This document shows positions 47,198 to 64,000 of a DNA stretch of 64,000 nt, piece by piece. A program made the translations under genes and the position numbers. Positions within the stretch are counted from its first letter, which is position 1; each line of letters begins with the position of its first letter. The notes beneath the pieces were generated by a model. That model saw only the letters and a list, made by a program, of their open reading frames with translations. It had not been told where the DNA came from and searched no databases. Source of the stretch: Paenibacillus terrigena DSM 21567 (GTDB lineage: Bacteria > Bacillota > Bacilli > Paenibacillales > Paenibacillaceae); NCBI RefSeq assembly GCF_000374845.1, contig NZ_KB895414.1, positions 682,001 through 746,000 of the forward strand. Direction: 5' to 3'.

Positions 47198-47215
47198 CCT
47201 ATTCCTCCTCTCACG

Positions 47216-47665
47216 TTAAGGCATGTATAGAAATGCGGTAACTGCACCCGGCAGCACAGCATACATAAATGGAAATTTCAACATCTTCCCCTCTCCAAAA
47301 GATATCCACGTTCTCCGCCGAATCAGCATGATGACCACAGCAATAGCTCCTGCATATAAGACGGAATACATCAAGGATTGCATCGTATATTGCAGGCCTG
47401 TTACCGCTCCGAGTGCTGCGAATAACTTCACATCCCCGGCTCCAACCGCTTTGAACAGATATAGTACGAATAGGATTGCAAATCCCGCTCCAGCACCATA
47501 GATTGCATATAAGAATCCAGCCCATCCTTCCGTCACGGCATGAAGCCCCAGTCCAAGAATGGCAATCGGCACTGTCAATCGATTCGGGATTTTCGAACGC
47601 GTCACATCCGTATAAAAAGCAATACCTAAATAAATGGCGCATAATACCGCTACAATAATCGTCAA
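47216..47665 (-). CDS. Type IV prepilin peptidase, TadV/CpaA type
   Basis: 149 residues, the short aspartic peptidase without the N-methylase domain. The two catalytic aspartates are in FYTDVTRSKIPNRL and GAGDVKLFAALGA. About five membrane helices. It should process the Flp-like pilin and the TadE-like pseudopilins encoded in the same operon. Its ATG overlaps the previous stop (ATGA). Confidence 0.92.
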   Translation of the reverse strand: MTIIVAVLCAIYLGIAFYTDVTRSKIPNRLTVPIAILGLGLHAVTEGWAGFLYAIYGAGAGFAILFVLYLFKAVGAGDVKLFAALGAVTGLQYTMQSLMYSVLYAGAIAVVIMLIRRRTWISFGEGKMLKFPFMYAVLPGAVTAFLYMP

Positions 47666-48606
47666 CCCTTACCCTCCTTCATCGATTCTTGAACTTGAAC
47701 CTGCATTTCCGTCTTCTGACCATCGACTGTCTCAACGACAATCTGGACCGTACTTCCCTTGGTCGTATTACCTGATACACGCCATGTCCACTCTACGTTG
47801 CCTTCTGCATCTGCCGTCTTCTCACCCAAATATTTCGCCGTACTCTTACCGCTCTTATAGTAAACGACCACTTGAACCGTCTGATTCGGCTGTACCTTCA
47901 CTTTGACTGTAGCATTGGATCCAGGCTTCATCGGATTCGGTTCCATCCCGACGATTTGCGGTTGACCCGTTGTCCCTTCCGAACCCGTTCCCGTGCCTGC
48001 ACCCGAGGTATCACCAATCCATGCCCGTTCTGCCGCTCTCGCCTGTATGACCAGCTCCTTGTCCAGGAACGGGACTCGCATCGGCATCGTATACGAAAGC
48101 TCTAGAGCAACGAAAGTTGGGGTTTTCTTCTTCAAATTCGGGAACGAAAATCGTGTCACATGAATTCGTTCCTCACGCAGCATGGCATCCTGAAGATAAG
48201 GTTTAAGCAGCGGCTTCACGAGTGTATCCCCAGCGGCTTGATAGAGCGCATCTTCGGTGCGACGATATAGCTCTGTATTCTTCACCCAATCCCCAATTGG
48301 AGGTGGCAGAATCCGGTTATACGTCTGTGCTACCTCTTCCATCGTCAGCATTCCCCCGCCACCTGTCTCGGCCCCCTGTGCCGCTGTAGCTCGGTCCATG
48401 ACAATAGAAACAGGATACAGATGAGTCGCCAGCTGTTTGACCGTATTCGAGACGGTTAATTGCAGCACAATTGACGTATATACCATCTGGATCATATAGA
48501 TTAGAAAAATAACAAAAAACAAAAAGATAGGCAGAACCATGGCAGCCTCAACCGTCATGCTCCCATGCTCTTGGCGCCGCATCTTCTTATGGAGTTGCTG
48601 TAACAT
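47662..48606 (-). CDS. TadE-like pseudopilin with C-terminal beta domain
   Basis: 314 residues from MLQQLHKKMRR, with AAGGAGG six bases before. The class III-type segment GSMTVEAAMVLPIFLFFVI gives an N-terminal helix. The end (about 220-305) is a beta-rich, Ig-like stretch starting GMEPNPMKPGSNATVKVKV. It probably forms a minor part of the pilus or its envelope assembly. A MITE-like element separates it from the upstream DUF5702 gene, which could disturb co-transcription. Confidence 0.85.
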   Translation of the reverse strand: MLQQLHKKMRRQEHGSMTVEAAMVLPIFLFFVIFLIYMIQMVYTSIVLQLTVSNTVKQLATHLYPVSIVMDRATAAQGAETGGGGMLTMEEVAQTYNRILPPPIGDWVKNTELYRRTEDALYQAAGDTLVKPLLKPYLQDAMLREERIHVTRFSFPNLKKKTPTFVALELSYTMPMRVPFLDKELVIQARAAERAWIGDTSGAGTGTGSEGTTGQPQIVGMEPNPMKPGSNATVKVKVQPNQTVQVVVYYKSGKSTAKYLGEKTADAEGNVEWTWRVSGNTTKGSTVQIVVETVDGQKTEMQVQVQESMKEGKG

Positions 48607-48641
48607 GATTCGCCTCCTTGGGAGCAAATGTTGAGTTAAAA

Positions 48642-48921
48642 AGTTCAAAATTTGACTTATTAGCACCTGAAAGTTTTCTTAGAAAGCTCACTTCGTAAGT
48701 GAGTTCTAAGTTTGCTTGAAACCTATGCTGTGCTTCCGATGCGAGTTTTTCTACGAAAAACTTTTAGGAGGAGCGGAGTTTAGGAGAAACCTAAATGAGC
48801 ACCTGAAATGTTTCCGGAGGAAACATACTTCGTAAGCATATGCTGTTCGAGGTTGAATGCAAGATTCGATACCGAATTCACTTCTTGAAAATCTTCGTGA
48901 TCATGAGTCGAATTTTGAACT
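48642..48921. mobile_element. MITE-like element, copy 2 (280 bp)
   Basis: Ends AGTTCAAAATTTGACT (48,642-48,657) and AGTCGAATTTTGAACT (48,906-48,921) are inverted repeats with one mismatch. Between them lie nested palindromes, including TTTAGGAGAAACCTAAA and GTTTCCGGAGGAAAC. Read on the minus strand it aligns closely with 18,177-18,460, for example over CATTTCAGGT, CTCATTTAGGTTT and TCCTCCTAAAAGTTTTTCG. It occupies the only large gap inside the tad operon. Confidence 0.8.
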
Positions 48922-48926
48922 ACCTA

Positions 48927-51215
48927 TTAGTAGGTAAAGGCTGCTTTTTTGGTTACAAAGTAGCGACTCCCCTCCACTTCCCCTTGGGAGATAAACTGTG
49001 TTAATCGCAACGTTTTCATGACTCCGGGTAGGAACCACAGCCGTATGGACGCCCTTACATCCCCTTCGATTGTCGTCACTCTCTCGTTCGGATTGATTTT
49101 CGTATTGAATTGAATGACGGCCAGCATACGGGACATCATTGCTTCGTTCCGGCTGTGCAGCATGAGGAACATCCGGAGATAGTCTTTATATGTCAGACGG
49201 ACAGGTACATATTTGGACATTTCGATATCCCCGTGATTCACCAATTCGAGCATATCCTGAATCGCATGTTCGACCCCATAGAGAATTGCTGCTGCTAGAA
49301 TCAGAAGCGGATTACCCATCCGGCTGCATTCCACAAGTCCTTCCATTGTTCGAATCGCAAGTCGCACACTGAAAATTTCACCATAGGAAGCCGCTAGATT
49401 ACTACCTGGGTGATGAAATCCATAGAGGATATATTCCAGCTCTTGGCTCGGCACTTGCAGCGCATCCACCAATTGATCACTCATATTTTTCGAGGTGAAG
49501 AGGTCTTTCAGCTTCTCAGGCTCAAATCTTGTAAACCGATTCACCGCATACTCATTCCGATAGAATTCATCACGCATACCAATCAACATGCCCGCCATTC
49601 CGCCATATAAGTCATCCATCATCGACATGGAATCCTTGCTCGCATCTTCGGGTTGATCATTTAGATTGGATTGACTTGCTTCCTGTTCCGCACGAGCATT
49701 GAAATTCAGGTTATCATCGTAAAATTGCCGTAACTGATTGAATTGCTCTTGCCCCTTCTGTGCTCCTGCTCCTACTTCTTTCAGCTTCTTCAGAAGACCA
49801 ACTACTTCACCCAGCTTCGCCTTGGACTTCGCTTCCGCCTTCTTCCGCTCGGCATCCGAACTGCGGTAGGCCTGAATAGCTGCCTCCCTTGCTTGCAGGA
49901 CATTAACACCACCATGCCTCACATAGGCATTCAAATAGTCATTAATCGCTTGGCTCAGTCGTATTACTGCTTGCTTCAGTGGATAGGCGCTTCCTGTAGT
50001 ACTTGGCACAGCCGACGATACGATAGAATCAAAATCCTGACTTACTCGTTCAAAACGTTCAAAAGCTTGGATCTGACCTTGAACTTCACGTTCAAATTGC
50101 TGAATGAATTCATCCGGTAGAATCAATTGATCCACCTGATTACGTATGTCTTCGATCGCCGTTGCAGTGTCACCCGGAAGTTCTGAAAGCCCGCCACTCG
50201 GTGTGCGACCATTCTCTACCTGATCGTAAGCCTCTTTGTTCTGCGCTCTTGCTTCGGCAATGGTTCGCTTCATTTGTTCATTAAGTGCCCTGATTTCTGC
50301 AAATTTCGGAAGCACAGCTTGCAGCTTTTCTCGATGCTGCCGCTGTACACGATCCACAAGCTCTTTAAAATCACGCTGGAACGAGCGAACATCTTCCTCA
50401 TACCCTGAAGTCTCATCCGAATACGCCGGCGATTCATCTTCATCTCTCATCGAATCCGCATATTTCATCCGAACATAGTCTTCATATTGCGCGGCAATAT
50501 CGACAGCTCGACTGATTGTTCCTACCATTGTATTTGCAATGCTGTACTGACCATTGCCTCCAACATAGCGGTCATCAAAATTGGTACGGGATATTTGCTC
50601 GCTAGCCCGCTGCTGCGCTTGAAGTACCTCATCCATCAGCTTCTCTCGCTTCTCATATTGCCTCTGGAGCGATACGAGTAAATCTGTCGTGCGTGACGCT
50701 TCCTTCATCTGCTGCGACATCGGCTTCAATCGATTAATGATTTCAAGGGTAAAGTCAATCGGCGCCTTGTATTTCATATCCTCCTGGATCTGATGCTCAA
50801 ATACGGGATAGCGCCCTAACTGATTACTGCCCTCGATACTCTGTGTATCTGGAACAATATCTAATAGTCGAACAGCTGACCCTTTGAGGGATTGTATCCC
50901 GGTTGCCTGTTTCAACGAATCGGCGAGCAATGCATTAGAATCTGTTCCACCTTGCGCGAATAAACCGTATTTTTCTTGTAAAATCGGATCATAACTTGAC
51001 ATCACTGAACGCATACCCGACTTCGCCAGCTGTTCTGTCTGGAATTGAAAAGCTGCGATTCGGGCGTAATCTATAAAAACCGCAATAAACATAAAAATAA
51101 TGGCCACAATCATAATGAGAAATACCGTTACAGCTCCATGCTGCTGATCCTGCAGCTCCCGAAAGGGGAGCAAAATGCTCAAGCGGTTGTTGTTCTTACG
51201 TCGCTGCTTGCGCAT
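48927..51215 (-). CDS. DUF5702 pilus-associated protein (TadG-like)
   Basis: 762 residues from MRKQRRKNNNR, with GGGGGAG just before; upstream in-frame codons lack a site. One N-terminal helix in GAVTVFLIMIVAIIFMFIAVFIDYARI precedes a long extracytoplasmic part. Much of it (about 150-520) is helical and charged, with Gln/Glu/Arg-rich coiled-coil stretches. The end matches DUF5702 with ALQVPSQELEYILYG. In tad operons such proteins occupy the TadG place, thought to anchor or organise the pilus at the surface; this is inference. Confidence 0.82.
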   Translation of the reverse strand: MRKQRRKNNNRLSILLPFRELQDQQHGAVTVFLIMIVAIIFMFIAVFIDYARIAAFQFQTEQLAKSGMRSVMSSYDPILQEKYGLFAQGGTDSNALLADSLKQATGIQSLKGSAVRLLDIVPDTQSIEGSNQLGRYPVFEHQIQEDMKYKAPIDFTLEIINRLKPMSQQMKEASRTTDLLVSLQRQYEKREKLMDEVLQAQQRASEQISRTNFDDRYVGGNGQYSIANTMVGTISRAVDIAAQYEDYVRMKYADSMRDEDESPAYSDETSGYEEDVRSFQRDFKELVDRVQRQHREKLQAVLPKFAEIRALNEQMKRTIAEARAQNKEAYDQVENGRTPSGGLSELPGDTATAIEDIRNQVDQLILPDEFIQQFEREVQGQIQAFERFERVSQDFDSIVSSAVPSTTGSAYPLKQAVIRLSQAINDYLNAYVRHGGVNVLQAREAAIQAYRSSDAERKKAEAKSKAKLGEVVGLLKKLKEVGAGAQKGQEQFNQLRQFYDDNLNFNARAEQEASQSNLNDQPEDASKDSMSMMDDLYGGMAGMLIGMRDEFYRNEYAVNRFTRFEPEKLKDLFTSKNMSDQLVDALQVPSQELEYILYGFHHPGSNLAASYGEIFSVRLAIRTMEGLVECSRMGNPLLILAAAILYGVEHAIQDMLELVNHGDIEMSKYVPVRLTYKDYLRMFLMLHSRNEAMMSRMLAVIQFNTKINPNERVTTIEGDVRASIRLWFLPGVMKTLRLTQFISQGEVEGSRYFVTKKAAFTY

Positions 51216-51250
51216 GTCTCTCCCCCTCATTTCCACAAATGACAAGCAAT

Positions 51251-51958
51251 TTATTTCTTACCTTTACTTCGCTGCTGCTCAAGCACTTCCCGTGCTTGCT
51301 CTTGGGTTACGGGCGATCCGCCTCCACTTCCCGCATTCTTGAACTTCGCACCGTAATAGCGAACCAGCTCAACAGTTCGAATAAATTCAACGGGGTCGAC
51401 AACGGAACTGCTAACCTGCGTCTGCAAAGAGACTTGTCTGCCCATCATCCATTCTAGCGGCTTAAATCGGAGCGGATTCAGAACATCTACCGTCACCGAA
51501 CGTCTCCAGCCTTGGTTCTGATACTGCATCGTCCCTCGGATCGTTGCTGGAACCGCGACAGATGCGCCCGCCATCTTACGCGTAGGCAAACTGCTCACCT
51601 CACTCCCTGAACGATGAAGTTCATAGGAAGTTCCTTGTGCCTGCCCCGTTAACCCAAATAGAACATCCAGGGTCTGATCATCCGTAAGCCGCCAATACAA
51701 GCCATCAAATTGACCATATTGGAAGGCGCCTGTCGCTGCTTCTTTCGAAGAATTGTCCCAGTTATACGCCGTTCGTTCCACGGACACCGATCCAATATAG
51801 ACGAGGACGACTTTCTGATAGGTATAGAGACAGAAGAATAGCAGTCCAATAATGATCATGAATATAAACGGGAACAACATCGACGCCTCGACGGTGAAGC
51901 TGCCATCTTCCTGTCTTAACTTGTTAATTTGCCGTCTAAAGTTACGCATCATATCCAT
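51251..51958 (-). CDS. TadE-like pseudopilin
   Basis: 235 residues. After a short basic start, GSFTVEASMLFPFIFMIII marks the TadE N-terminal helix with the conserved glutamate. A soluble part follows with YNWDNSSKEAATGAF and a Gly-rich tail. It starts on the base next to the pilin stop, so the two are coupled. It should be a minor pilus component processed by the TadV peptidase. Confidence 0.87.
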   Translation of the reverse strand: MDMMRNFRRQINKLRQEDGSFTVEASMLFPFIFMIIIGLLFFCLYTYQKVVLVYIGSVSVERTAYNWDNSSKEAATGAFQYGQFDGLYWRLTDDQTLDVLFGLTGQAQGTSYELHRSGSEVSSLPTRKMAGASVAVPATIRGTMQYQNQGWRRSVTVDVLNPLRFKPLEWMMGRQVSLQTQVSSSVVDPVEFIRTVELVRYYGAKFKNAGSGGGSPVTQEQAREVLEQQRSKGKK

Positions 51959-52147
51959 TTATTTCTGATACAGCTTATCCGTTTCGTCCATCGTTTTCCC
52001 CATCAACGTATCAATCAGTTCCGATATCTTATCTTTAAAAATAAGAACAATGACTACGAGCACAGCAATAATAAAGATGATCTCTACCGTCCCAAGACCT
52101 TCTTCCTCTTTCCAGACCGCCTTTAGCGATTTTCCTACATTCAACAT
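51959..52147 (-). CDS. Flp-like type IVb pilin
   Basis: 62 residues. A charged leader precedes EEEGLGTVEIIFIIAVLVVIV, a class III signal with a glutamate soon after the glycine and one hydrophobic helix. The C-terminal tail is short and charged, as in Flp1-family pilins. It is the likely major subunit of the Tad pilus. It lies between tadC and a tadE-like gene. Confidence 0.85.
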   Translation of the reverse strand: MLNVGKSLKAVWKEEEGLGTVEIIFIIAVLVVIVLIFKDKISELIDTLMGKTMDETDKLYQK

Positions 52148-52183
52148 CCCTCAACACTCCTTATCGTTATTAATCCCTTACAC

Positions 52184-53068
52184 TCATGCACTCATCATCA
52201 TGAAGATCGGGGTACATACCAATACCAGCAACAGAAAAAATACAACAACCATCGGGAACACTAGCTTAGATGAGGCCTCCTCCCCGCGCACGCGGCTTAC
52301 TGCTTTGCGTTTCTCCCATAGGATTCGGGACAAATCGCGCAAGGCAACGACAAATTCACCCCCTCCTCTTCGATAGTTGAGCATAATGGTGGTCGTGAAG
52401 ATCGAGACTTCCTGCAAGGCGCATCGCTTGCTGAACTGTTCAAAGGATTGCTGGAAGGAATACCCCCCGCTCCATTCATGGATCATCTGAATCAATTCTT
52501 TGTATAGCGGATGCGATGTTTGCGACCTCTTGCGATCCACACATAATGTGAGCGCTCGTTGAACCGTCTCCCCCGCATCTACCAGCAAGATCATCTGATT
52601 CAAGAACTCCGGCAATTCCAGCAAAATCTCATGTTCCCTGTTCTTCACACGCTTGTCCAATTCTTTCAATTGAGCCAAGGGCAGCAGAACCGCGAGCATC
52701 AGTCCTACGCCAAACCCAGCTAAGCCACCATCCGTCAGCATGGGGAGCAGACAGGCGAATATAAGCATGAAGAAGGCATAGTTCAGAATCTCCGCCATGA
52801 ACAACGTACTATACAAGGCCGATACCTGACTTCCATACAACACCTGCATAGCGCGTTGAATACGGTAAAATATCGCTGGAATGCGCTCGATCCATCGGAT
52901 CTCTTCCAGTAAATAAAGCATTGGAGATGCAACTTGCAGTAGCTTCATATTCGGAACAGACGCAGGAATTCTTTCTTTGAACCGCCCCCCTGCGCGTAGC
53001 GCGCACACGCCCCAGCTAAGAAACAGCAGCAACGCAATCATTCCCCATCCTAGGGTCGGCATTTCCAT
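52184..53068 (-). CDS. tadC: Tad inner-membrane platform protein TadC
   Basis: 294 residues with helices at the N-terminus, near 95-140 and at the C-terminus. The T2SSF domain shows LLELPEFLNQMILLVDAGETVQRAL and RRGGGEFVVALRDLSRILWEKRK. With TadB it forms the membrane platform on which the ATPase acts. It follows tadB by 30 bases. Confidence 0.9.
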   Translation of the reverse strand: MEMPTLGWGMIALLLFLSWGVCALRAGGRFKERIPASVPNMKLLQVASPMLYLLEEIRWIERIPAIFYRIQRAMQVLYGSQVSALYSTLFMAEILNYAFFMLIFACLLPMLTDGGLAGFGVGLMLAVLLPLAQLKELDKRVKNREHEILLELPEFLNQMILLVDAGETVQRALTLCVDRKRSQTSHPLYKELIQMIHEWSGGYSFQQSFEQFSKRCALQEVSIFTTTIMLNYRRGGGEFVVALRDLSRILWEKRKAVSRVRGEEASSKLVFPMVVVFFLLLVLVCTPIFMMMSA

Positions 53069-53098
53069 TCAACCTCCTTTACCAGGGGAAATATCATG

Positions 53099-53989
53099 TC
53101 ATACACGTATATCCATAATCTTCAGAATCCAAGCACTACAAGCCACTAATCCCACCAGAACAAAAGTTGATACAACGAATCCAAACCCTTGATACATCGG
53201 TTGCATGAACTCGGGAGCGCTCATATTCAAGAAAGCGAGGAACCCCACCGGAGCCAGCATAATAATCTTGGATTCGAATTTCTTCTGGGCTACCATCACC
53301 GCAATCTCTTGTTTCACGTCCATCTTCTCCCCAATCAAATTCGACGTTCGGCGCACAACCTCAACGAGATCGCCACCTGTACGTTTGCAAGCAGAGAACA
53401 CTTCGGCAAAATTCGTAATATCTTCAATGCCCGCCCGCTGGCTTAAATCAAGTAAAGCCTGCTCAATCGGCTCCCCATTCTCCAAGCGTGAACGGATAAT
53501 GCGGAATTCCCGGATCAAATCGGTATTCGCATCGGGATACAAAAGCTGTAAGTCTTGAATCACCTCATGAAAGCTATTCTCGACGGATCTTCCTGCAGCA
53601 AGAGATGATGAAATCGAGTACAAAGCCTGCTTAAATTGCAGACTAAGCTCGGTTCTACGCCTTAGTAACAAGGCTTCACGCCGGAATTTGGGATATAGCG
53701 CACCTGCGCCAAAGCACAGGATTGCAGCTACGAGATTGTGATAGAACAAGTAACCTACGATACCGAAGATCAATCCTGCCGCAACAAACGCCGTCAGCCA
53801 TTGTATCCGAGACAGCTTGTACGCCGTGTAGATCGTTAATCCTTCAGGCATTTGCCTATCAATCTGCACGGAGGGCACTTCCGGATCAACACCGGCAACC
53901 TTCAACCGTCGTCTTCGCATCCGCTCCTGTACAACGAAAAACCCGCCTGTCGCTATCGCAGCTACCAACGCCAAAACAAGTACGTTCAT
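53099..53989 (-). CDS. tadB: Tad inner-membrane platform protein TadB
   Basis: 296 residues. A start helix, two helices near 65-105 and two at the end flank a T2SSF domain with FKQALYSISSSLAAGRSVENSF and FAEVFSACKRTGGDLVEVVRRT. It partners TadC. Its ATG overlaps the tadA stop (ATGA), confirming that tadA was its natural upstream neighbour. Confidence 0.92.
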   Translation of the reverse strand: MNVLVLALVAAIATGGFFVVQERMRRRRLKVAGVDPEVPSVQIDRQMPEGLTIYTAYKLSRIQWLTAFVAAGLIFGIVGYLFYHNLVAAILCFGAGALYPKFRREALLLRRRTELSLQFKQALYSISSSLAAGRSVENSFHEVIQDLQLLYPDANTDLIREFRIIRSRLENGEPIEQALLDLSQRAGIEDITNFAEVFSACKRTGGDLVEVVRRTSNLIGEKMDVKQEIAVMVAQKKFESKIIMLAPVGFLAFLNMSAPEFMQPMYQGFGFVVSTFVLVGLVACSAWILKIMDIRV

Positions 53990-54396
53990 CCATCTCCCCC
54001 TCTACCTTTTAGTTGATCGTCTTCGTTCAGCAGGCCTGCCATCTGAAGCTTGCTCATATCCTGTAATCCATGTCCTGTCGCACGCAGTTCACCTTTTACT
54101 TGACCGGCCTCTTCCCCCTCTTCTTGGAATCGGAATAATGGTCGTAGTACCACCTCCCCCTCCTCAAGTCCTATCACTTCGCTAATTTCAATCACATGTC
54201 TGGATCGATCACGAAGACGAGAAAGGTGGACAATAATATCGATCGCAGAACAAATCTGCTGACGGACTACCTCTATTGGTAGCGGCGCACCACTAAGCAC
54301 CATCGTCTCCAAGCGGCTAATCATATCCTGTGGGCCATTGCTGTGCCCGGTGGATAGGGAGCCATCGTGGCCAGTATTCATCGCCTGTAGCATATC
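53986..54396 (-). pseudogene. tadA: C-terminal fragment of pilus assembly ATPase TadA/CpaF
   Basis: Only about 137 codons remain of a protein usually over 400 residues long. The fragment begins within D-M-L-Q-A-M-N-T-G-H-D-G, followed by STGHSNGPQDMISRLETMV and the C-terminal RDRSRHVIEISEV region. The nucleotide-binding N-terminal part, including Walker A, is absent. Homology holds back to the GAT codon at 54,394-54,396; a few codons further upstream the frame hits a stop in AT-rich DNA. The ATG inside the fragment is not a start. A functional Tad system would need an intact copy elsewhere or excision of the DNA at the junction. Confidence 0.88.
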
Positions 54397-54500
54397 TATA
54401 AATAGGTATTAAAAATATCGTTGTTTTAGAATCAATTCATCGCCGCCATACATCAGTAGGTTTGTAGATTACATATAAAAAACACATGGAGGTGCAATTC

Positions 54501-54554
54501 ATGACCTTATCTACAGAAATAATTTACTTTTTAAAAACAGCAAGAAAACAATAG
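54501..54554 (+). CDS. Possible 17-residue peptide
   Basis: ATG at 54,501 follows GGAGG by eight bases and reads MTLSTEIIYFLKTARKQ before a stop. It is short and amphipathic with a basic end. It could be a small peptide, a leader, or a degraded gene start. No homologue is recognised. Confidence 0.25.
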   Translation: MTLSTEIIYFLKTARKQ

Positions 54555-54562
54555 TAAAGTAT

Positions 54563-54748
54563 TTGAATCTTAAACCTGAGATATCTTATGGTTTCGGGGC
54601 CTTACGAAGTAGAAGGATTGACTTAAAGGGTTATATTAATCAGCACTTTACTTGTGCGTATAATCATACTAGGGATATTTCATACAGGGATAACGAGAGT
54701 TATGATTGGGCTTATCCGCCTTATCCACTCGGCACTGGGTGGGGGTAA
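54563..54748 (+). CDS. Short unrecognised frame with aromatic C-terminus
   Basis: An open frame, entered without a clear start (TTG at 54,563 is the nearest codon; the frame is open further left), ends YDWAYPPYPLGTGWG. The tail is rich in Tyr, Trp, Pro and Gly. It might be the remnant of a larger gene lost at the junction or a small secreted peptide. A terminator follows directly, which suggests it is or was transcribed. No family is recognised. Confidence 0.25.
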   Translation: MNLKPEISYGFGALRSRRIDLKGYINQHFTCAYNHTRDISYRDNESYDWAYPPYPLGTGWG

Positions 54749-54753
54749 AAGAA

Positions 54754-54799
54754 AAGAACCAAGAAGACAAAATCTTCTAGGTTCTTAATTGTTTTTTTT
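54754..54799. terminator. Intrinsic terminator between convergent frames
   Basis: AAGAACC-A-AGAAGA and TCTTCT-A-GGTTCTT form a stem followed by AATTG and eight or more T's on the plus strand. It also closes the minus-strand immunity gene. Confidence 0.8.
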
Positions 54800-55235
54800 A
54801 CAAATCCTTCTTGTTTATAAATTCAGCTTCTATTACTTCATAATTTTTATTAACAGGATTACCACCGTACCTCTGAAGGATTTTGGTTATGACATTATAA
54901 AAAGCAAATTCAGGGGTCGCTCCTTTAGAAGAGTACTCATACTCTTGGTTATCGGTAACAATTACCTTATATCCCATTCCCGAATAAGATAAGTTGAATT
55001 TGGTATCATTTTCTTCTAACCAAGAGATTAAATCAAGTAAACTCGGAATCCATGTACCTTCCTTGTATATCTCTTCCTCACAGAGAAAATTTCCCGAAGG
55101 CAAGATTCTTCCACCTACCACCCATGTTGAGTTTTGATAATCATAAATGTCTTGTGGATACACTGAATCTGCATAATCGGGTCTTTTGAATCCTAAATTA
55201 AACAACTTTACTGCTTCTGTTTTCGATAAGGACAT
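54798..55235 (-). CDS. Putative immunity protein of the RHS toxin
   Basis: 145 residues, acidic overall, with no signal peptide, so cytosolic. The middle has GTWIPSLLDLISWLEEN and the end GATPEFAFYNVITKILQRYGG. No named family is assigned. It begins 16 bases after the stop of the 2089-residue RHS gene on the same strand, the classic place of an immunity gene for a polymorphic toxin. It would neutralise the C-terminal toxin domain in the producing cell; this is inferred from position and size. Confidence 0.6.
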   Translation of the reverse strand: MSLSKTEAVKLFNLGFKRPDYADSVYPQDIYDYQNSTWVVGGRILPSGNFLCEEEIYKEGTWIPSLLDLISWLEENDTKFNLSYSGMGYKVIVTDNQEYEYSSKGATPEFAFYNVITKILQRYGGNPVNKNYEVIEAEFINKKDL

Positions 55236-55251
55236 ATCATCACACCCAGAC

Positions 55252-58200
55252 CTACTTTATTTTGATAACTGTACCAGTTGAACTCTTATGTTTTCCAACA
55301 ATAAAGTTACCGTATTCGTCGGCGTCAGAAACCCAATTGAGTTCTTTTCCACCTTTTGCTTCTTTAAATACTTTAAAAGCAGAATCAGCATGACCAGTCG
55401 TGTCTTTAGCCCACCACATTCCTGTTTTCGGGTCACGATATGCTGAAACAGTACTTCCATTAAATTTATAATCTATTTTCTTATCAGCACCAGTCTTTAT
55501 ATCCCATTTTGTAGTTGTATTAGGTGTACTACAAGCGTTATGCGTCCAAATACCAAGGTTGGATACAAAGTACGTATGGAAGTCCTTTACCTTAAAGTTG
55601 TAGACTGTCCTATGTTCCTTCTTAACTTCAATCTTCTCGATGGCTAATTCTTTGCCATCTGAAGTTGTCAGAACATCGCCCACCACAAGGTCTTTGGACT
55701 TCACCCAATCCTTGCCAACAATCCAGAACGGATGCTCATCAGTTGTCGTTATGACTTCGCCGCCAACAGTAATATTATACGTTTCTTCAACATCGCGATG
55801 GAAGAGCCATTCAACTTCCTTGTAAGCTATCTCTCCTGTATCATCGTCTTTAGCTAGGACTTTATCCCCTACCTCGATTTCCTCGATAGGTTTCTCCCCT
55901 TCGTCTGTCATTACTTTAGTACCAGCTATGAAACACTGGCATTCATTTTGTCTTTTGAGAGAATTTGAACCAGATTTAATACTAGTTACTCCTTCAACTA
56001 ATGCAATCCCTAAAATAATCGTATCTATATTCTCTACATCGTATTTTAATACAACATCACCCATCGCTTGCTTATACTTAATATTACCTTTATTGTTTGC
56101 TGTCATAAAACTTTTGTGATCAAATTGATACTGGTACATGTAAAAGCTATAATCAATTTCGGAATTAGATTTCATTCTTCTGATATTATTCTTATCTAAA
56201 TAATATCCCGAATCCCCACCAACTCCACTACTTAATATTAGAAAATGTCCACTAGGATCAAAATATATGAGCGGGTTGTTACTCACATACGTATATAAAT
56301 TCAAACTTAATGGATTATTTTGTTCCCCTTCATACGTATCCTCATTAATAAACCTTCCAATACTCGGATCGTACCATCTTGCTCGTAAATATTGTAATTG
56401 GGTCGTATCATCCCATAACTCACCAGAATATCTAAATGGATTGTGAACCTGTTCTGTCTGGTTGATTGGTTTTCCCCAAATATCATAACTATACTGATTT
56501 AAGATATTACCTGCTTCATCACGCAATTCAACAATATCGCCATGCCCATTTGTTAGAACAAAAGCTCTACTACCATTTGCATATTCTATAGACTCTAGTT
56601 TATTTCCTCTAACATAGTGTGCTTTAAGTTGTGGCCTACCGTTTACAACAGTTGCTTCAGCGATGATTTGTTGACCATCATAATAATAACGTGTCGTTAT
56701 TCCATTCTCTATACGCTCAACAAGTAGATCATCTCCATCGTAACGATATTGTACCAGTTTGCCGTCAATTTTCACGCTTGTTAGCCGGTCTGTGGAATCG
56801 AAAGCATTCTCCACCGATGCTAGACTCAATACTTCATTCGATGATTTTAACTCTGATCTGTTACCGCGCAGATCATACGTATATTTCATGTCATACGATA
56901 ATGATTCAATGCGATTTAATACATCATAAGTAAAGCTCTTTGCTTGTCCAGTCTGGCTTTGATACACTATATTCTTATTCGAATCGTATTTATACTCGTA
57001 ATTATTAATTGAGTTATTATTCAAACTTTCTGATAACCTAACAAGCGATTTCCCATCATATTGATTCTTCGAAATTAGACCAGTAGATGTGTTTGTTTCT
57101 TTTAACAATCCATTTAGGTAATATGAATACTGAACATCTGTCTTAGTTTCCATATTTCCTACACTCTTCAAACGATTCATATTATCATATGCATAGTAGA
57201 TATTCTTACCGAATGGATCCGTCATCTGAATCCGATTACCATTGGTATCGTACGTCATTGATAACTGTAGCCCATCAGGATACGTCTTAGTTAGGAGTTG
57301 TTCTGTTTCTGGATCATACTTATAACTTGTAACCCCTGTTCCATCCGTCATACTAATACGTTTACCACCTGCATCATAAGAATAACTCGTTTCATCATCA
57401 GAACTTATTCTTGATACCAGACGATTGCGTTTATCATAATCAAACGTAACCTGCTTCCCATTGCGGTCTATTCTCTTGACGAGATTATCGTTCGCATCAT
57501 AATATTTACGCTCAGCTTGATTTGTTTCATCAATAATGCGGATTACACGACCAAGCTCATCATATTCTTTGGTCTTCAATTTCCCATCTGGGAATTGAGT
57601 CTTTTGTAAATTTCCCATCATATCGTAACTATAACGAGTTACTTCATTCTTTGCATTTGTTACAGCCGTTAATTGACCCAAAATATCATATCCATACTTT
57701 GTGCTTTGTTGCTTGGCATCTAGTTCTTCAATGAGCTTTCCTGTTATTGGATTATAAACATACTTCGCTTCTTGCGTTGAGGTAGTACTTCCTGATGTTT
57801 TTTCATCAATCCTATCAAGACGGCCAAACTTATCATAAGTTTCGATCACCATGTTACCTTCAGCATCCGTACTTGACTTTTGTCGAGTTGAATCGAGATA
57901 CTGAAATCTTGATTCTGAGCCCTCTGCATTCACTGTTGATTGAATTCGTCCCCACGCATCATAACGATTCTGAGTTAAATTGGACAGCGCATCTTCAGTA
58001 GAAATTACGCGTCCAAATGCATCGTAATTATACTTCGCCTTCTTCTCATAACTAGATCCCTTAAAAATACCTTCTTCGGTCTTCCAGCCTAGGGCATTCC
58101 AGCGAGTTTGACTCTTGCTTCCAACCTCATTAGTCACAGTTGTCGTATTTAATTTATCATCATACTCAGCTTTTATTGACTCACCTGCTGGATAAGTGAC

Positions 58201-61200
58201 TTGACGTATTCTGCCTAAGTTGTCATATTGGTAGCTTGTTCGAGAACCTTTCCCATCAATCATCCCTGTAACGAGCCCCGTTAATGACTCATACTCATTT
58301 TCGAGCGAGACTAGACTCTTTGTTCCCTCAGCATTACTAACCATTACTGATTGTTTCGTTGGGAATGCTGAAGCACTTGCACTATTATACTCGGTGTTAA
58401 CTGTTATCGTCTGTGAACCATTAACAATAGACCTTGATGTTACATTGCCATACGTATCAATCGAATTATTGTTTACTTGTTGTAACAATTCTCCCGAAGC
58501 ATTATTCTTCTTAACTGTAGTCCGCGTGACATCACCAGCAATATTCCTAATCATTTCAGTATAAATGAATTGATTCGTGTCAACTTGTTCCAGTGAGTTT
58601 GCAAGGAGATGATTTCCAGAATCATAGTTAAAAGTACTTACTGCTCCATTGCTATCTACTCGTCTCGTCACATTACCATGATCATCATATTCAGTCGTTA
58701 CTGTTAATTTATCAGATGTTAGGTTGTCACTCGTAGTTACGCTAGTTGGAGATGTTGAATTATATGAGCGACTACCCACTTTCTTATTATAGGAATACTC
58801 AGTAGTTTTGATCGTACTACCAGCTTTCACCTCTGTATTATCTAGATAAAACTGTGAAGCCGTATTATTGTCAATATAATCCTTGCGGTATTTAAATGTA
58901 TTTTGAATCAAACCGTCATCTATCGTTGTAGAGAAGCTCATATCTTGATCATACGAGCTTCCAAAGAAGCTATTATTGTAATTCATTGACTGACGGTTAT
59001 ACGGTAAGACGCTTCCGTTCGTATAGCTAACCTCATCCCAACGAGAGGAAATGCGATAGACTTCATTATAAGACTCTGAACCCATATAGTTTTTTTGAGG
59101 TGATTTTTCATAATCATATAATGTAGTTGCTCCTGTTGGATGTTGAATCTTAGTAATTAAAGCATATGGATTATTAGCTGCACGTTCAGGGTAAGCTCCT
59201 AATAAGTTAAAACGTGCATTTGCTTTCAAATAATAATAAGTCGTCTTACGTCCTTCGGCATCTGTAACTGAATCTAAAAATTCTACACCGTCCACAATTC
59301 GTTTCGTATATGTAATCGTCTGTTTTCCATTTGTAACTATAACTTGGGAAGGAGTGTACGCGATTCTAATTGTATTGCCAATACTATCTTTAATTTGTGT
59401 AAGTAATTTACTATTATAAGTTGAACTTTGCTCATACAAGAAATGAATTTTATTGTTATATGGATCCGAAATTTGAATTAATCGTCCATCACTTGTAAAC
59501 CATTGTTTCAACCTACTGTCAATTGAAGTCAATACATAATTTGATTGTTCACCATTTACATTCAGAGTTGAATCTATTGTTAATGTTGGACTTTCCCACT
59601 CATATCCTTTTAATTTCGTTCCCTCGATTTGATAACGCCCACCATCCATCATATTTATATACTGTTTGCCCTTTTCTGACTCCATATATGGCAGCTTCCA
59701 GCGCCAACCTTTTCCGATTGGGGCTATTTTTTCGAACTGAGGGGTTTTGGTAGTGTTACTGTAGGTATATCCATAACCAGTATACGCAACATAGCCTTTA
59801 ATTACTGGGTTTGGATTCGATGAAATATAATATACCTTGCTATCTTGCACACCTAAGCGTGCTCCCTGATTATTCATAATAAAATTTTTTAGATTCGATA
59901 TTTCATTATAATCATATGAAGCCTCAGAATTTAGCTGAACATTTACGCCAGGTCCAGTTTGCTCTATTTTCGACTCAACTATAAATGGTTTCTGGTTCGT
60001 ATAAGCAAATCTCCAACTACCTTTATTCGAACCATACGAAATCCAATTATCATATCTTGTGTCTGTTGAATATCCAGGTTTTGTAATAGTCCCTATGTAA
60101 CCTTGACGCCATGTTCTTGTATCTGGAGATGCGGGCTTAGTTACAGTGCCTGAATAATTAGCTTTATACTCTTTGGTACATACATATCCAGCTGATTTCA
60201 GATCCGGAGAAGAACAAGCTTTCACTATATCCGTTGTCGTTCTATTTAAAGTCCCTGAGTATCCTCCATTAGTATATTGTAAAGAATCTGGGCAGGTATT
60301 CCCGCTTCCCGTTCTACTCCATACTCCTTTGGAATCATATTTTCCGGGTATTCTATTGGTACAGCTACCAGGCTCAGTCTTAGAATGAGCAGGAGTATAG
60401 GACCCTGAAATAATTTTCGATCCTCCATCTTTGTATAACCTACCAACAAATTGATTCTTATCATAATTTATATAATCCGGAAAACTATCTGTACTTTTTT
60501 CTAATTTTTCCTTGTGGTCATATTCAGATACCGCTGGATAATGGTATAATACAGGTTCATTTGCAGCTTTAATTGCCTGGTCTTTTATGTTATAGACTCC
60601 GACTGTTCGTTCATAAGTCTCATAAACTGGAGACGACGAAGAGTCAACTATACCATCATTATTCATATCATCCTGAATATACTTCACTTCGTTATACTTA
60701 ACTGTGTATTGTGGAATTAGTGTTTTGGCTACGGCACTGTACTCAACGTAATATTTATAAATATCATATGGGAAAGATTCTTCTCTATAATCCATATCAT
60801 AGAATTGAGCATCTCTAGTGCTATATTGTCGTGTCAATGAAAATCCTAGCCCATTCCTGCCAGGAAGTTTGATCTCGGTATTCTGAAGTGATAGCTCTCC
60901 AGTCATACTAGAAATTGACTCATTATTATTTCCAATAGCATATGGAGCTTGGCTGAATGAATCTTTCTGGTATACGGGCGCTTTTTCCAATACTGGAGGT
61001 GGTGTTACCCCCAGAAAATTCATTCGTGTCATCTGCCCCACATAAACTTCGTCGGTTACAGAAGATTCATTATTACTACTATGATTTTTTTCATCATAAA
61101 CTTGGCCTGTCACCGTTGCACTGCTACTCTCAATAAAACTCATTTTTTGTAAAATAGAGTTATTTATATCACCATACACCTGACCAGGTACACCTTGTGA

Positions 61201-61521
61201 AGTGTCCATTTCGTACACTTCACCTGTAACACTTTGAGATCTGTTCATTTCTGTTGCAAATAGTTTTTTCAATGCCTCTTCGTAACTGATATTCATACGC
61301 TCTGCATGATAAAGAATTTTATATATATCACTTAAATTGTGACCTGCATCAAGTTGTTCCTGAATAAATTCTTCTGTTACTGAAAACCGATCCAATATAG
61401 ACTCAATTGTAATTTGTGAGATCTCTTCATTAGCAGATACTTGTCCTAGATTATAGCCAATCAGTTCAATATTAAGCGTAAGTATTAATAGTAAGACAAC
61501 TATCTTTCTGATTAGTTTCAT
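55252..61521 (-). CDS. Secreted RHS/YD-repeat polymorphic toxin with Hint domain
   Basis: 2089 residues. A signal peptide (about 1-30) is followed by four V-T/P-G/D-x-V-Y motifs (98-160), a Cys-containing repeat region (about 370-490), and a long series of YD repeats that should form a hollow shell. The RHS core (about 1694-1757) has LRARWYDPSIGRFINEDTY and NPLIYFDPSGH. A Hint/intein-like domain (about 1863-1995) runs from CFIAGTKVMT to the end GIWTHN and probably cleaves the chain. The last ~94 residues are a toxin-like domain with TGHADSAFKVFKE and ADEYGNFIVGKHK, probably an enzyme such as an RNase, not certain. AAGGGAG precedes the ATG. Confidence 0.93.
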   Translation of the reverse strand: MKLIRKIVVLLLILTLNIELIGYNLGQVSANEEISQITIESILDRFSVTEEFIQEQLDAGHNLSDIYKILYHAERMNISYEEALKKLFATEMNRSQSVTGEVYEMDTSQGVPGQVYGDINNSILQKMSFIESSSATVTGQVYDEKNHSSNNESSVTDEVYVGQMTRMNFLGVTPPPVLEKAPVYQKDSFSQAPYAIGNNNESISSMTGELSLQNTEIKLPGRNGLGFSLTRQYSTRDAQFYDMDYREESFPYDIYKYYVEYSAVAKTLIPQYTVKYNEVKYIQDDMNNDGIVDSSSSPVYETYERTVGVYNIKDQAIKAANEPVLYHYPAVSEYDHKEKLEKSTDSFPDYINYDKNQFVGRLYKDGGSKIISGSYTPAHSKTEPGSCTNRIPGKYDSKGVWSRTGSGNTCPDSLQYTNGGYSGTLNRTTTDIVKACSSPDLKSAGYVCTKEYKANYSGTVTKPASPDTRTWRQGYIGTITKPGYSTDTRYDNWISYGSNKGSWRFAYTNQKPFIVESKIEQTGPGVNVQLNSEASYDYNEISNLKNFIMNNQGARLGVQDSKVYYISSNPNPVIKGYVAYTGYGYTYSNTTKTPQFEKIAPIGKGWRWKLPYMESEKGKQYINMMDGGRYQIEGTKLKGYEWESPTLTIDSTLNVNGEQSNYVLTSIDSRLKQWFTSDGRLIQISDPYNNKIHFLYEQSSTYNSKLLTQIKDSIGNTIRIAYTPSQVIVTNGKQTITYTKRIVDGVEFLDSVTDAEGRKTTYYYLKANARFNLLGAYPERAANNPYALITKIQHPTGATTLYDYEKSPQKNYMGSESYNEVYRISSRWDEVSYTNGSVLPYNRQSMNYNNSFFGSSYDQDMSFSTTIDDGLIQNTFKYRKDYIDNNTASQFYLDNTEVKAGSTIKTTEYSYNKKVGSRSYNSTSPTSVTTSDNLTSDKLTVTTEYDDHGNVTRRVDSNGAVSTFNYDSGNHLLANSLEQVDTNQFIYTEMIRNIAGDVTRTTVKKNNASGELLQQVNNNSIDTYGNVTSRSIVNGSQTITVNTEYNSASASAFPTKQSVMVSNAEGTKSLVSLENEYESLTGLVTGMIDGKGSRTSYQYDNLGRIRQVTYPAGESIKAEYDDKLNTTTVTNEVGSKSQTRWNALGWKTEEGIFKGSSYEKKAKYNYDAFGRVISTEDALSNLTQNRYDAWGRIQSTVNAEGSESRFQYLDSTRQKSSTDAEGNMVIETYDKFGRLDRIDEKTSGSTTSTQEAKYVYNPITGKLIEELDAKQQSTKYGYDILGQLTAVTNAKNEVTRYSYDMMGNLQKTQFPDGKLKTKEYDELGRVIRIIDETNQAERKYYDANDNLVKRIDRNGKQVTFDYDKRNRLVSRISSDDETSYSYDAGGKRISMTDGTGVTSYKYDPETEQLLTKTYPDGLQLSMTYDTNGNRIQMTDPFGKNIYYAYDNMNRLKSVGNMETKTDVQYSYYLNGLLKETNTSTGLISKNQYDGKSLVRLSESLNNNSINNYEYKYDSNKNIVYQSQTGQAKSFTYDVLNRIESLSYDMKYTYDLRGNRSELKSSNEVLSLASVENAFDSTDRLTSVKIDGKLVQYRYDGDDLLVERIENGITTRYYYDGQQIIAEATVVNGRPQLKAHYVRGNKLESIEYANGSRAFVLTNGHGDIVELRDEAGNILNQYSYDIWGKPINQTEQVHNPFRYSGELWDDTTQLQYLRARWYDPSIGRFINEDTYEGEQNNPLSLNLYTYVSNNPLIYFDPSGHFLILSSGVGGDSGYYLDKNNIRRMKSNSEIDYSFYMYQYQFDHKSFMTANNKGNIKYKQAMGDVVLKYDVENIDTIILGIALVEGVTSIKSGSNSLKRQNECQCFIAGTKVMTDEGEKPIEEIEVGDKVLAKDDDTGEIAYKEVEWLFHRDVEETYNITVGGEVITTTDEHPFWIVGKDWVKSKDLVVGDVLTTSDGKELAIEKIEVKKEHRTVYNFKVKDFHTYFVSNLGIWTHNACSTPNTTTKWDIKTGADKKIDYKFNGSTVSAYRDPKTGMWWAKDTTGHADSAFKVFKEAKGGKELNWVSDADEYGNFIVGKHKSSTGTVIKIK

Positions 61522-61609
61522 AAATAATAACTCCCTTAAAAGGATGATTTACAAGCAACAACAAGGAAATAAATGTGTTTCTTATAATTTTTATTTAAGT
61601 CATTAGTTC

Positions 61610-63295
61610 CTATGGTGTAATAATTTTCAAAAGATTCCCGTTTTTATCGTATTGATAAATTTTCAAAACTTGTCCAGAAGGAGTCGTGACATTACTCAAT
61701 CGTCCTGATTGATCATAATTGTACTTAAGCTCCCCCTTGTAAAAGGTTATTACATTTGATGGGTTAGACTCATTACCATCAGCATCATAAGCCTTTACTG
61801 ATAACTTATATAAATTATTATTTGGTAATAGGTTTACTGGATAGGAATTCGTATTTCCAGGAACACTAGCTATAACAAATTGGGTTCCATTATAAATATG
61901 ATACCATTCGACACCAAAGTTATCTGTTGATCCCGACCAGCTTAGTGTTGTTAGAGTACTCGATATTGCAAAATTGGTAGGTGCTGTAGGAGCTTGGTTA
62001 TCAATTGGACTATCTACATAATCAATTGTATAATCAATTGTTGCATACTCAGTTGCTGCTGCTAAATTCGGAGAATATGCTGCGGCGCCATAAATTACAC
62101 CTGACCATAAGCTCCTAAGATCCTGTCCGCGAACATTAAGTATCCCCTTCTGTGTTGATCCAACATATATAACGTTTCTCCCGTCTTTACCCGGTTTCGG
62201 AGAAGTGTAACCGAAATTCGCCTCATTTCCGTACTCCTCTTTAGTTAAATAAATCTCAACAGGCTGGAATAGCATTTCTGGATCATTATCGCCAAGATAG
62301 CTTTCTACGTACATTTGTTGGATTTGATTAACATTAAGGTCGGGGAAATCTACGTATACTTTATTTGATGTCCCAGGTTTATATATTCCTCCGTCAATAG
62401 TTACAGATGGGTCAACAGTTATTGGGTATGTTAATCCTGTTGTATCAAACTCAAGATCAATATATAATAAGCCCTCATTTTCATTCCTTAATAATTGTTT
62501 TACATCCCGCTTAATACCATTAGCATCAATCAAAAAAGCAGGAGCAATTTTCATCTTTCCTGATACTAGTCTGTCTGATAACTGACCTTTAACTTGAAAA
62601 GAAAATTTTCTCGGAGCATTTATCGACTTTAAAATGATATCTTCTTTTATTCCATTTGGTAAAACTTTAAGTTGAATGTCAGAGTCTTTCCAGACATCTT
62701 GATAACTAATTTTATCCCGATCTACCGAACCAATGACATCAGTAGCTCCAATAGGAATGAAAGTCAACTGGATGTTATCTTTCCCAATTAAATATCCTTT
62801 CTTAACACTCTTAGAAACCTCCAAATAAAATGGTACTTGAGCTGCAGTATAGGTATTGACCGCTGAATCTTTCTTTGTATTTTTCATCTGATTACTCTTT
62901 ATTTTTTTTATATTTACTGCCGTTTCACTTGACATGACTATATCAGATGTCAACAAATCATTTGTATCTAATAGAGATGTGTTTATATCCAAAAAATTAC
63001 CATTATTATCAAGATAGTGCATTGGCATTGAAGAATAAGTTTTCCGAGAATGACCGTTACTTAATCGGTATTGTTTTGAATTGCTAGTACGTTTACTAAC
63101 TATTTCAGTTGCTTCTTCACCACTTTTACCTTTCCCAATATTGATACATTTACTGAGATCTACAGTACATGTTTCTGTTTTTCCATTAATCTGCTGCGAA
63201 TACTCCACTTTACTCGCCTTCAACTCGTTAGGTATGAGAGATAGTGAAAACAAGATTACTAGCAACATCAAACTAACTTTTTTGGGATTCTTCAT
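61610..63295 (-). CDS. Secreted RHS-partner protein with Fn3-like domain and one YD repeat
   Basis: 561 residues with a signal peptide (about 1-28). The N-terminal half resembles the start of cell-wall RHS/WapA-type proteins (YQDVWKDSDIQLKVLPNGIKEDI, LEFDTTGLTYPITVDPSV). A DNRLRE-like beta region follows, then an Fn3-like domain from about 440 (APTAPTNFAISS, YKLSVKAYDADGNES). The last 45 residues are a single YD-type repeat, YNYDQSGRLSNV and YQYDKNGNLLKI. It lies 88 bases upstream of the large RHS gene and is probably co-transcribed. It looks like the first part of an RHS protein made as a separate chain; partner or docking function is inference. Confidence 0.8.
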   Translation of the reverse strand: MKNPKKVSLMLLVILFSLSLIPNELKASKVEYSQQINGKTETCTVDLSKCINIGKGKSGEEATEIVSKRTSNSKQYRLSNGHSRKTYSSMPMHYLDNNGNFLDINTSLLDTNDLLTSDIVMSSETAVNIKKIKSNQMKNTKKDSAVNTYTAAQVPFYLEVSKSVKKGYLIGKDNIQLTFIPIGATDVIGSVDRDKISYQDVWKDSDIQLKVLPNGIKEDIILKSINAPRKFSFQVKGQLSDRLVSGKMKIAPAFLIDANGIKRDVKQLLRNENEGLLYIDLEFDTTGLTYPITVDPSVTIDGGIYKPGTSNKVYVDFPDLNVNQIQQMYVESYLGDNDPEMLFQPVEIYLTKEEYGNEANFGYTSPKPGKDGRNVIYVGSTQKGILNVRGQDLRSLWSGVIYGAAAYSPNLAAATEYATIDYTIDYVDSPIDNQAPTAPTNFAISSTLTTLSWSGSTDNFGVEWYHIYNGTQFVIASVPGNTNSYPVNLLPNNNLYKLSVKAYDADGNESNPSNVITFYKGELKYNYDQSGRLSNVTTPSGQVLKIYQYDKNGNLLKIITP

Positions 63296-63578
63296 TGTTT
63301 AAATACCCACTTTCTCTTTTTGAAATAATCGACAAATATTTACACTTAGATCATTATAAAGATCCCAATCTATAACTACTATCGCTAAAAATGTCGTTTT
63401 TTATCGTTTTATCTATAGTATTTGTAAATGGCTCTGTAAGAATTATACAGAGCTTAACAACATGCTTTCTTTATAGTGGCATGACGTGATACGCACAAAC
63501 CACCACAGCTTTGTTATACTTCAATAAAAAATCTAATTAACTATCATACCAATCCATGAAATCAGCCTAAAATAATAC
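63296..63578 (-). promoter_or_regulatory. Leader and promoter region of the RHS genes
   Basis: No gene is seen. On the minus strand a TATAAT hexamer lies about 60 bases before the 561-residue gene, without a good -35. A dyad GCTCTGTA-N7-TACAGAGC lies at 63,431-63,453 and could be a regulator site or a weak terminator. Confidence 0.4.
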
Positions 63579-63603
63579 AAAAAAATAGACCTTCTCAGGT
63601 CTA
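63579..63603 (-). terminator. Intrinsic terminator overlapping the recombinase stop
   Basis: On the minus strand TAGACCT-GAGA-AGGTCTA is followed by seven T's. The stop codon TAG at 63,601-63,603 is the first part of the stem. Confidence 0.8.
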
Positions 63604-64000
63604 CTTAATTGGAAGAAGAGTCCATGGATCTATATACTCATCATCACCAACTTTAAAATATTTACTTGTATATTCATAAGACAAATCCCCCACGGATTGA
63701 CCCATATACTTCCAATGTATCTCTTTGGGTTCTGGTAAATGAACATACCCCATCATAGCGCCATAATTTAGATCGAGATCATTTGTTGTAAAAACAATCT
63801 TATCAATTATTTTCCTAAGGGTAGCATTACTTAAATTTTTAGTATCTATTTTTTTTAGGCCTTCAACAAAATCATTAAACTGTGCAACAAGTCTACACTT
63901 TTCCAAATCAATGTTTTTCAATTGCTCTAGTTCATTCTTTAAGATACTCATTTGATTGTTTAGTTTCCTTGAACGTTCAGCAAATTCTGTTTCTTCGATA
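63601..64000 (-). CDS. C-terminal part of a probable large serine recombinase
   Basis: The frame is open to the right edge, so the methionine at 63,951 is internal. The visible 132 residues start with a charged coiled-coil (ETEFAERSRKLNNQMSILK... about 60 residues). LSNATLRKIIDKIVFTTND follows, the pattern seen near the C-terminus of large serine recombinases, and then an unassigned tail with EPKEIHWKYMGQSVG. The catalytic N-terminal domain is outside the window, so the call rests on pattern only. If right, it is the integrase of the element that splits tadA. Confidence 0.45.
   Translation of the reverse strand, partial: IEETEFAERSRKLNNQMSILKNELEQLKNIDLEKCRLVAQFNDFVEGLKKIDTKNLSNATLRKIIDKIVFTTNDLDLNYGAMMGYVHLPEPKEIHWKYMGQSVGDLSYEYTSKYFKVGDDEYIDPWTLLPIK

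Follow-up and report, generated by a model that had tools for sequence, protein, structure and literature searches.

An element with a large serine recombinase splits the Tad pilus ATPase gene of Paenibacillus terrigena at a tadA codon shared with related elements

The stretch of DNA analysed here (the window, 64,000 bases) corresponds to bases 682,001-746,000 of contig C3 (755,604 bases) in the genome of Paenibacillus terrigena DSM 21567 (G000; 6.36 Mb, 40 contigs), and it contains one end of an integrative element that splits tadA, the gene for the Tad pilus ATPase. This element, of about 24.8 kb, was very probably inserted by its own large serine recombinase (LSR) into an attB site of tadA, with the crossover at a CA dinucleotide. 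Related elements occupy the same spot in other genomes of the Paenibacillus family, so that tadA is, as judged from sequence, a docking site used repeatedly and, in principle, reversibly. Composition, a direct repeat and a contig join place 9.6 kb of the element inside the window (54388..64000). An earlier note on the window had proposed that tadA was interrupted in this way; the missing 5′ part of the gene was found outside the window, the right-hand protein is a recombinase, and eight further genomes have related LSRs at this tadA codon.

The 3′ part of tadA (53986..54387, minus strand) is native host sequence from the CA core on, as defined by the T2SSE profile match and the position of the core. 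The corresponding open reading frame (ORF; 53,986-54,393, minus strand) encodes the 135 C-terminal amino acids, matches positions 230-286 of the T2SSE (PF00437) profile and has 4 bases in common with the next gene, in line with the ~137 codons and the overlap with tadB described earlier. A search of the whole genome for the secretion-ATPase family (E<=0.001) gave only two half-matches, this 3′ part at profile positions 228-285 and a sequence on contig C19 covering profile positions 8-234, so that no second family copy able to replace tadA was seen. The 5′ part on C19 reads ..VVGEVRGAEALDMLQAMN followed by INR-stop (..DMLQAMN-INR-stop), ending at the codons predicted to precede the break, and the frame in the window reads DMLQAMNTGHDGSL... 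An in silico join at the core, where the two halves meet at CA with no base lost and none added, gives one uninterrupted frame of 420 codons, stop codon included. A look for strains with intact tadA had also been suggested, and in both genus relatives searched the gene is a single frame of 424 amino acids. Upstream of the 5′ part, C19 encodes an AAA_31 protein, which we take to be CpaE-like.

The crossover dinucleotide CA (54386..54387, minus strand) falls where the Leu and Gln codons of the DMLQAMNTGH motif meet, within the Gln codon, and is all that the ten junction pairs examined have in common at their centre, nine of them from elements with an LSR and one from an LSR-less copy in genome G047. 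In the junction pair of G114 the bases next to CA differ on both sides. Junction comparison in P. terrigena revealed a 24-bp direct repeat with one mismatch (54375..54398, minus strand; second copy at C19:7197-7220), and this is the short repeat at both element ends whose existence had been suspected. The crossover does not lie at 54,396/54,397, where the earlier note saw homology stop, but at the CA at 54,387-54,386: bases 54,388-54,396 are element-derived and mimic tadA, 8/9 being identical to the other junction. The inner bases of this element's attP match tadA at 8/9 positions on the left and 9/9 on the right, which accounts for the length of its repeat.

The element-derived attP half in the window (54388..54411, minus strand) includes the palindromic arm AATACCTATTTATA at 54,397-54,410, complementary to the other element end at 13/15 positions. 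In all ten elements the joined ends form a palindrome centred on CA, with complementarity at 11-15 of 15 positions at distances of 10-24 from the centre. Control comparisons gave at most 9/15 in 500 shifted centres and 2-5 in attB sites, and shuffles reached the observed complementarity 0 to 26 times in 20,000. The attP pattern of the clade consists of arms like ACCTATTATATA, 9 bases, CA, 9 bases and TATATAATAGGT. When this pattern, built from the relatives, was searched, with at most 2 mismatches allowed, in 394 family genomes, two matches were obtained, in G201 (exact) and G009 (2 mismatches); the attP of P. terrigena falls outside the pattern, with an arm one base shorter and the site split. 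The G201 site is unsplit (L283:6698-9840) and lies at a chromosomal place other than tadA, which is whole elsewhere in that genome, at ~2 kb from an LSR remnant (347-amino-acid ORF, 60% identical to the LSR of G299). An attP site of the predicted form therefore exists in the unsplit state. Viral contigs gave no exact match to the pattern.

Only the C-terminal part of the LSR is present in the window (63601..64000, minus strand; identified by ORF and domains), its gene running to C3:747,484, 1,484 bases past the window end. The last frame had been read as a serine recombinase C-terminus, and the full ORF (C3:745,601-747,484) indeed encodes a complete LSR of 627 amino acids with Resolvase, Recombinase and Zn-ribbon domains; its catalytic-region residues are conserved. 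At E<=1e-60, LSR relatives were found in 4 of 295 family genomes, P. terrigena included. In the remaining three (G114, G066 and G157) both parts of tadA lie on one contig and are separated at profile position ~228-230, the LSR gene is directly adjacent to one of them, and the elements measure ~36.4, ~21.6 and ~41.6 kb, respectively. A scan of a species-level genome collection, of which the best 80 of 262 LSR relatives were used, revealed eight Paenibacillus loci (34-46% identity), all in the tad operon; seven of them abut a tadA half and one lies within flp. Two of the seven, G066 (P. cellulosilyticus) and G157 (P. glycanilyticus), were already counted, and the five further ones (a Paenibacillus metagenome-assembled genome, P. 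allorhizosphaerae, P. dokdonensis, Paenibacillus sp. PCH8 and P. paridis) have both tadA halves on one contig. In total, nine genomes, counting that of P. terrigena, combine a related LSR with a tadA split at the same codon, and it is this combination in the relatives that decides the mechanism. It has to be noted that the nine genomes are not all independent lines, since LSR pairs reach 88% (G114, G298) and 85% (G295, G296) identity. The other 72 loci among the best 80 (3.1-21.5 kb of DNA each) contained no tad-operon gene at E<=1e-4, a weak negative because many of the hosts are distant and may have no recognisable tad operon. Phylogenetic analysis of 40 LSRs grouped the nine from tadA in one clade (support 100/98), which the flp LSR joined next (96/94).

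Comparison of the LSR with viral contigs gave a top-scoring relative of 32% identity among the best 80 of 123. Matches in phage records (336) were all below 60% identity, with 27-30% among the matches listed, and among those listed for plasmid records (222) only that of P. cellulosilyticus (42%) exceeded 28%. The P. cellulosilyticus LSR is located at NZ_CP054613.1:757442-759130, in a 2.7-Mb record labelled plasmid that has no annotated features there. The P. terrigena genome holds three more recombinase-domain matches, at C3:454191, C5:41048 and C7:21653, one of them with an in-frame TAG.

The LSR of P. radicibacter (34% identity) splits another gene of the Tad operon, the flp pilin gene, and tadA is intact in this genome. 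The two flp parts have 13 bp in common (L069:10001-15100, L172:3440-3760), and the element ends show arms of the same kind as those of the tadA elements (AAACCTATTTAGT / ACTAAATAGGTTT). Provided that the two sources contain one and the same 992,081-base contig in the same orientation, ~161 kb would separate the flp parts. The tadA copy of G047 (L169, G047:C1:3403800-3423700) is interrupted at the same codon by a 15.4-kb element in which short remnants are all that is left of the LSR and of the tyrosine recombinase; its core is CA and its attP arms are palindromic, as in the nine LSR-bearing elements. A tadA match was present in 292 of the 295 family genomes, and among the matches listed, frames shorter than 220 amino acids were those of G000, G114, G157, G047 and G292. 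The G292 frame was discarded as an insertion, being a frameshift with no element.

According to the mechanism we propose, an LSR of a clade from Paenibacillaceae would join a palindromic attP to an attB located in the conserved tadA codons for DMLQAMNTGH. Integration removes no base from the host and splits the Tad pilus ATPase within codon 287. The pilus would be off while the element is in, because everything beyond residue 287 of the ATPase is missing from the 5′ product, and excision, exact in silico, would restore tadA exactly. An LSR alone integrates attP into attB, and excision requires a directionality factor; none was identified for the P. terrigena element. Pilus loss, excision in the living cell and an advantage for element or host are presumed; being without the pilus might favour the element, through a closed phage receptor or DNA route, or might be a cost that is tolerated.

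The element boundaries were derived from composition and from contig ends. The GC content is 0.488 at 53-54 kb vs 0.317-0.400 in the 1-kb steps between 54 kb and the end of the window, in agreement with the AT-rich turn near the tadA break that had been noticed earlier, and further along C3 the steps as far as 754.5 kb give 0.316-0.389. An identical stretch of 1,666 bases, an insertion sequence with two ORFs that we assume to be of the IS3 family, IS150 group, is present at three contig ends (C3:753939-755604, C19:1-1666 and C27:14845-16510). The bases flanking it are ATT on C3, ATT on C19 and CAG on C27, and orientation and gene order are consistent with a C3-insertion sequence-C19 join. We take these sequences as contiguous, which would give an element of 24,760 bases.

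Several observations weigh against an element of this size integrated by its LSR. We infer the C3-C19 join only via an insertion sequence that also ends C27, and the agreement of the ATT flanks has a 1-in-64 chance, a 3-base match being weak alone. Neither an empty site nor a circular form was found in the assembly in a search with the repeat core at up to 2 mismatches, the core occurring only twice in the genome, which leaves the assembly with no empty site. The LSR of P. terrigena lies 9.2 kb from the junction, whereas that of the relatives abuts it, a distance for which a block of RHS genes accounts. In addition, the tree program warned of long branches, including the P. terrigena LSR, L068 and L069, and the element also encodes a tyrosine recombinase.

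The chances are about even that the element is real and the interruption is permanent in practice, that is, a locked insertion costing the host its pilus and not a switch. Such locking is suggested by G047, in which the same split is accompanied by an LSR remnant only and 18 amino acids are missing from the tadA 5′ part, and by the P. terrigena assembly, where neither a restored tadA nor a joined attP is present. It is countered by the state of the nine LSR-bearing tadA copies, which have no stops and break invariant sites within or near the range of intact genes. In this comparison, for which 23 intact tadA genes were chosen from relatives (including P. radicibacter, with its split flp) and each was left out in turn, changes at the 114 invariant sites of the 5′ part number 0-3 in the nine copies and 0-4 in the intact genes, and those at the 44 sites of the 3′ part 0-2 in both groups. 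The 5′ part of G047 breaks 14/114 sites, 7 of the 8 sites printed lying inside the 18-amino-acid deletion, and its 3′ part, a partial sequence, breaks 0/26. Undecayed halves do not decide reversibility, because a recent insertion would look the same; their sequences would fit recent insertion or restoration by excision, and one decayed case is not a trend.

An element longer than 24.8 kb, in which C3 and C19 link to other contigs at the insertion sequence, is unlikely. The presence of the same 1,666 bases at three contig ends would permit it, but the ATT flanks agree for C3 and C19 and not for C27 (CAG), whose genes are of mixed GC with no element-like content recognised. Contig C27 was rejected as part of the element on the basis of its unmatched flank and of a gene content unlike that of the element.

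Integration by the tyrosine recombinase (C3:749,371-750,231), with the LSR as a passenger, is very improbable. This protein is intact, has 286 amino acids and belongs to the phage-integrase family, and the 24-bp repeat, long for an LSR, would suit it. Nevertheless, its eight relatives in the 295 family genomes (E<=1e-40) have no tad gene in the surrounding 15-20 kb, whereas the LSR relatives do, and cluster analysis placed relatives of it in only 3 of 10 elements. Furthermore, the shared core shrinks to CA in other elements, and attP is palindromic around CA. The tyrosine recombinase was discarded as the integrase on the ground that its relatives are not near tad genes. Finally, truncation of tadA by simple deletion, rearrangement or assembly error, which a 40-contig genome with the halves on different contigs might suggest, is scarcely credible, being refuted, unless the relatives are unrelated, by the clean one-frame junction at CA with no lost or added bases and by eight other genomes with both halves on one contig together with an LSR.

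Integration by the LSR at the tadA attB being the preferred reading, a broader proposal can be put forward only tentatively and appears doubtful: an LSR clade specialised on the Tad operon (tadA in nine genomes, flp in a sister lineage), carrying phage and non-phage cargo, might act as a reversible pilus switch that closes a phage receptor or a DNA-entry route. If the switch reading were true, element in would mean pilus off, and element out pilus back. The question of a reversible switch becomes directly testable in named, culturable strains. LSRs with mapped attP, attB and core, backed by nine natural insertions at one codon, would also be useful integration tools, and the silencing of pilus machinery by mobile elements would be extended as a theme from competence pili to the Tad pilus.

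Regarding cargo, the window part of the element includes RHS genes, an RHS module having been announced in the earlier note. A 2,089-amino-acid RHS protein (55252..61521, minus strand; ORF and domain scans) contains RHS repeats, an RHS core and a pretoxin-HINT domain, and its C-terminal tip matched no family listed in the domain scans. Beside it, a 145-amino-acid ORF (54798..55235, minus strand) with no Pfam or NCBIfam match is a candidate immunity protein by its position, and the two genes may form a working toxin-immunity pair. A 561-amino-acid ORF (61610..63295, minus strand; ORF and domain scans) has a fibronectin type III domain and one RHS repeat. The two RHS ORFs (55252-63295) both show apparent signal peptides. 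None of the protein clusters printed contained an RHS-sized protein, and the P. terrigena element is the only one of the ten that has one. The element also encodes a HEPN protein, a DUF5677 protein and a helicase, in addition to the tyrosine recombinase. The serine-recombinase cluster alone was present in 9/10 elements, the next one in six. The G157 element is phage-like, with portal, capsid and tail genes, and no phage structural gene was found among 10 P. terrigena element proteins compared with PHROGs or in Pfam scans, which covered part of the ORFs. Selected proteins of other elements matched DndB-like and MrpR proteins (G114), Eco57I (G295), Mrr (G066), a primase (G296), a reverse transcriptase (G297) and UvrD (G299). 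In G225 (L037), a relative of the element's tyrosine recombinase has homologues of two other ORFs of the element (149 and 156 amino acids) in its neighbourhood, an arrangement that suggests a second, shared module. Outside the element, the rest of the Tad operon (tadB, tadC, flp pilin, TadE-like and others; 45590..53989, minus strand) follows downstream of tadA; same-order homologues occur in relatives, and the gene names are those we presume from ORF order and appearance.

The recombinase of the comK prophage of Listeria is of the LSR type. Publications already describe elements inserted in competence-pilus genes as well as LSR elements inserted in coding genes, and in a non-exhaustive search of the openly licensed PMC literature no report was found of tadA as a serine-recombinase target. 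The gin element in gerE of Bacillus cereus ATCC10987 (28.6 kb, three serine recombinases) has been shown experimentally to be excised in sporulation, as described in the relevant sections of PMC5595907. Like the element in tadA, gin is AT-rich, carries a serine recombinase and splits a coding gene, with a short shared junction sequence and exact restoration (in silico in our case). As portrayed there, gin has no phage genes, and none was found among the scanned proteins of the P. terrigena element, whose target is instead a pilus ATPase and whose excision is a prediction from sequence. The same sections describe the sigK skin elements of Bacillus and Clostridioides, likewise LSR elements in a coding gene restorable by excision, for which, unlike the tadA element, developmentally regulated excision is established. 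In the account given in parts of PMC7029219, the Listeria comK prophage resembles the tadA element in occupying a gene of a DNA-uptake system that is restored on excision, and differs from it in that the target is a regulator and excision has been demonstrated. SpST71A, located in comGA of Staphylococcus pseudintermedius, also interrupts the gene for an assembly ATPase of a pilus-like system, but ComGA belongs to a competence operon, and the main text on this element makes no mention of a serine recombinase (PMC7029219, in part). Finally, the comYC prophages of streptococci and relatives, as presented in portions of PMC4774983 and PMC12637031, offer a parallel in which related integrases use one pilus-gene site in several species; there the target is the competence pilus of Streptococcus and its kin, and here it is the Tad pilus of Paenibacillaceae, with a clade of LSRs.

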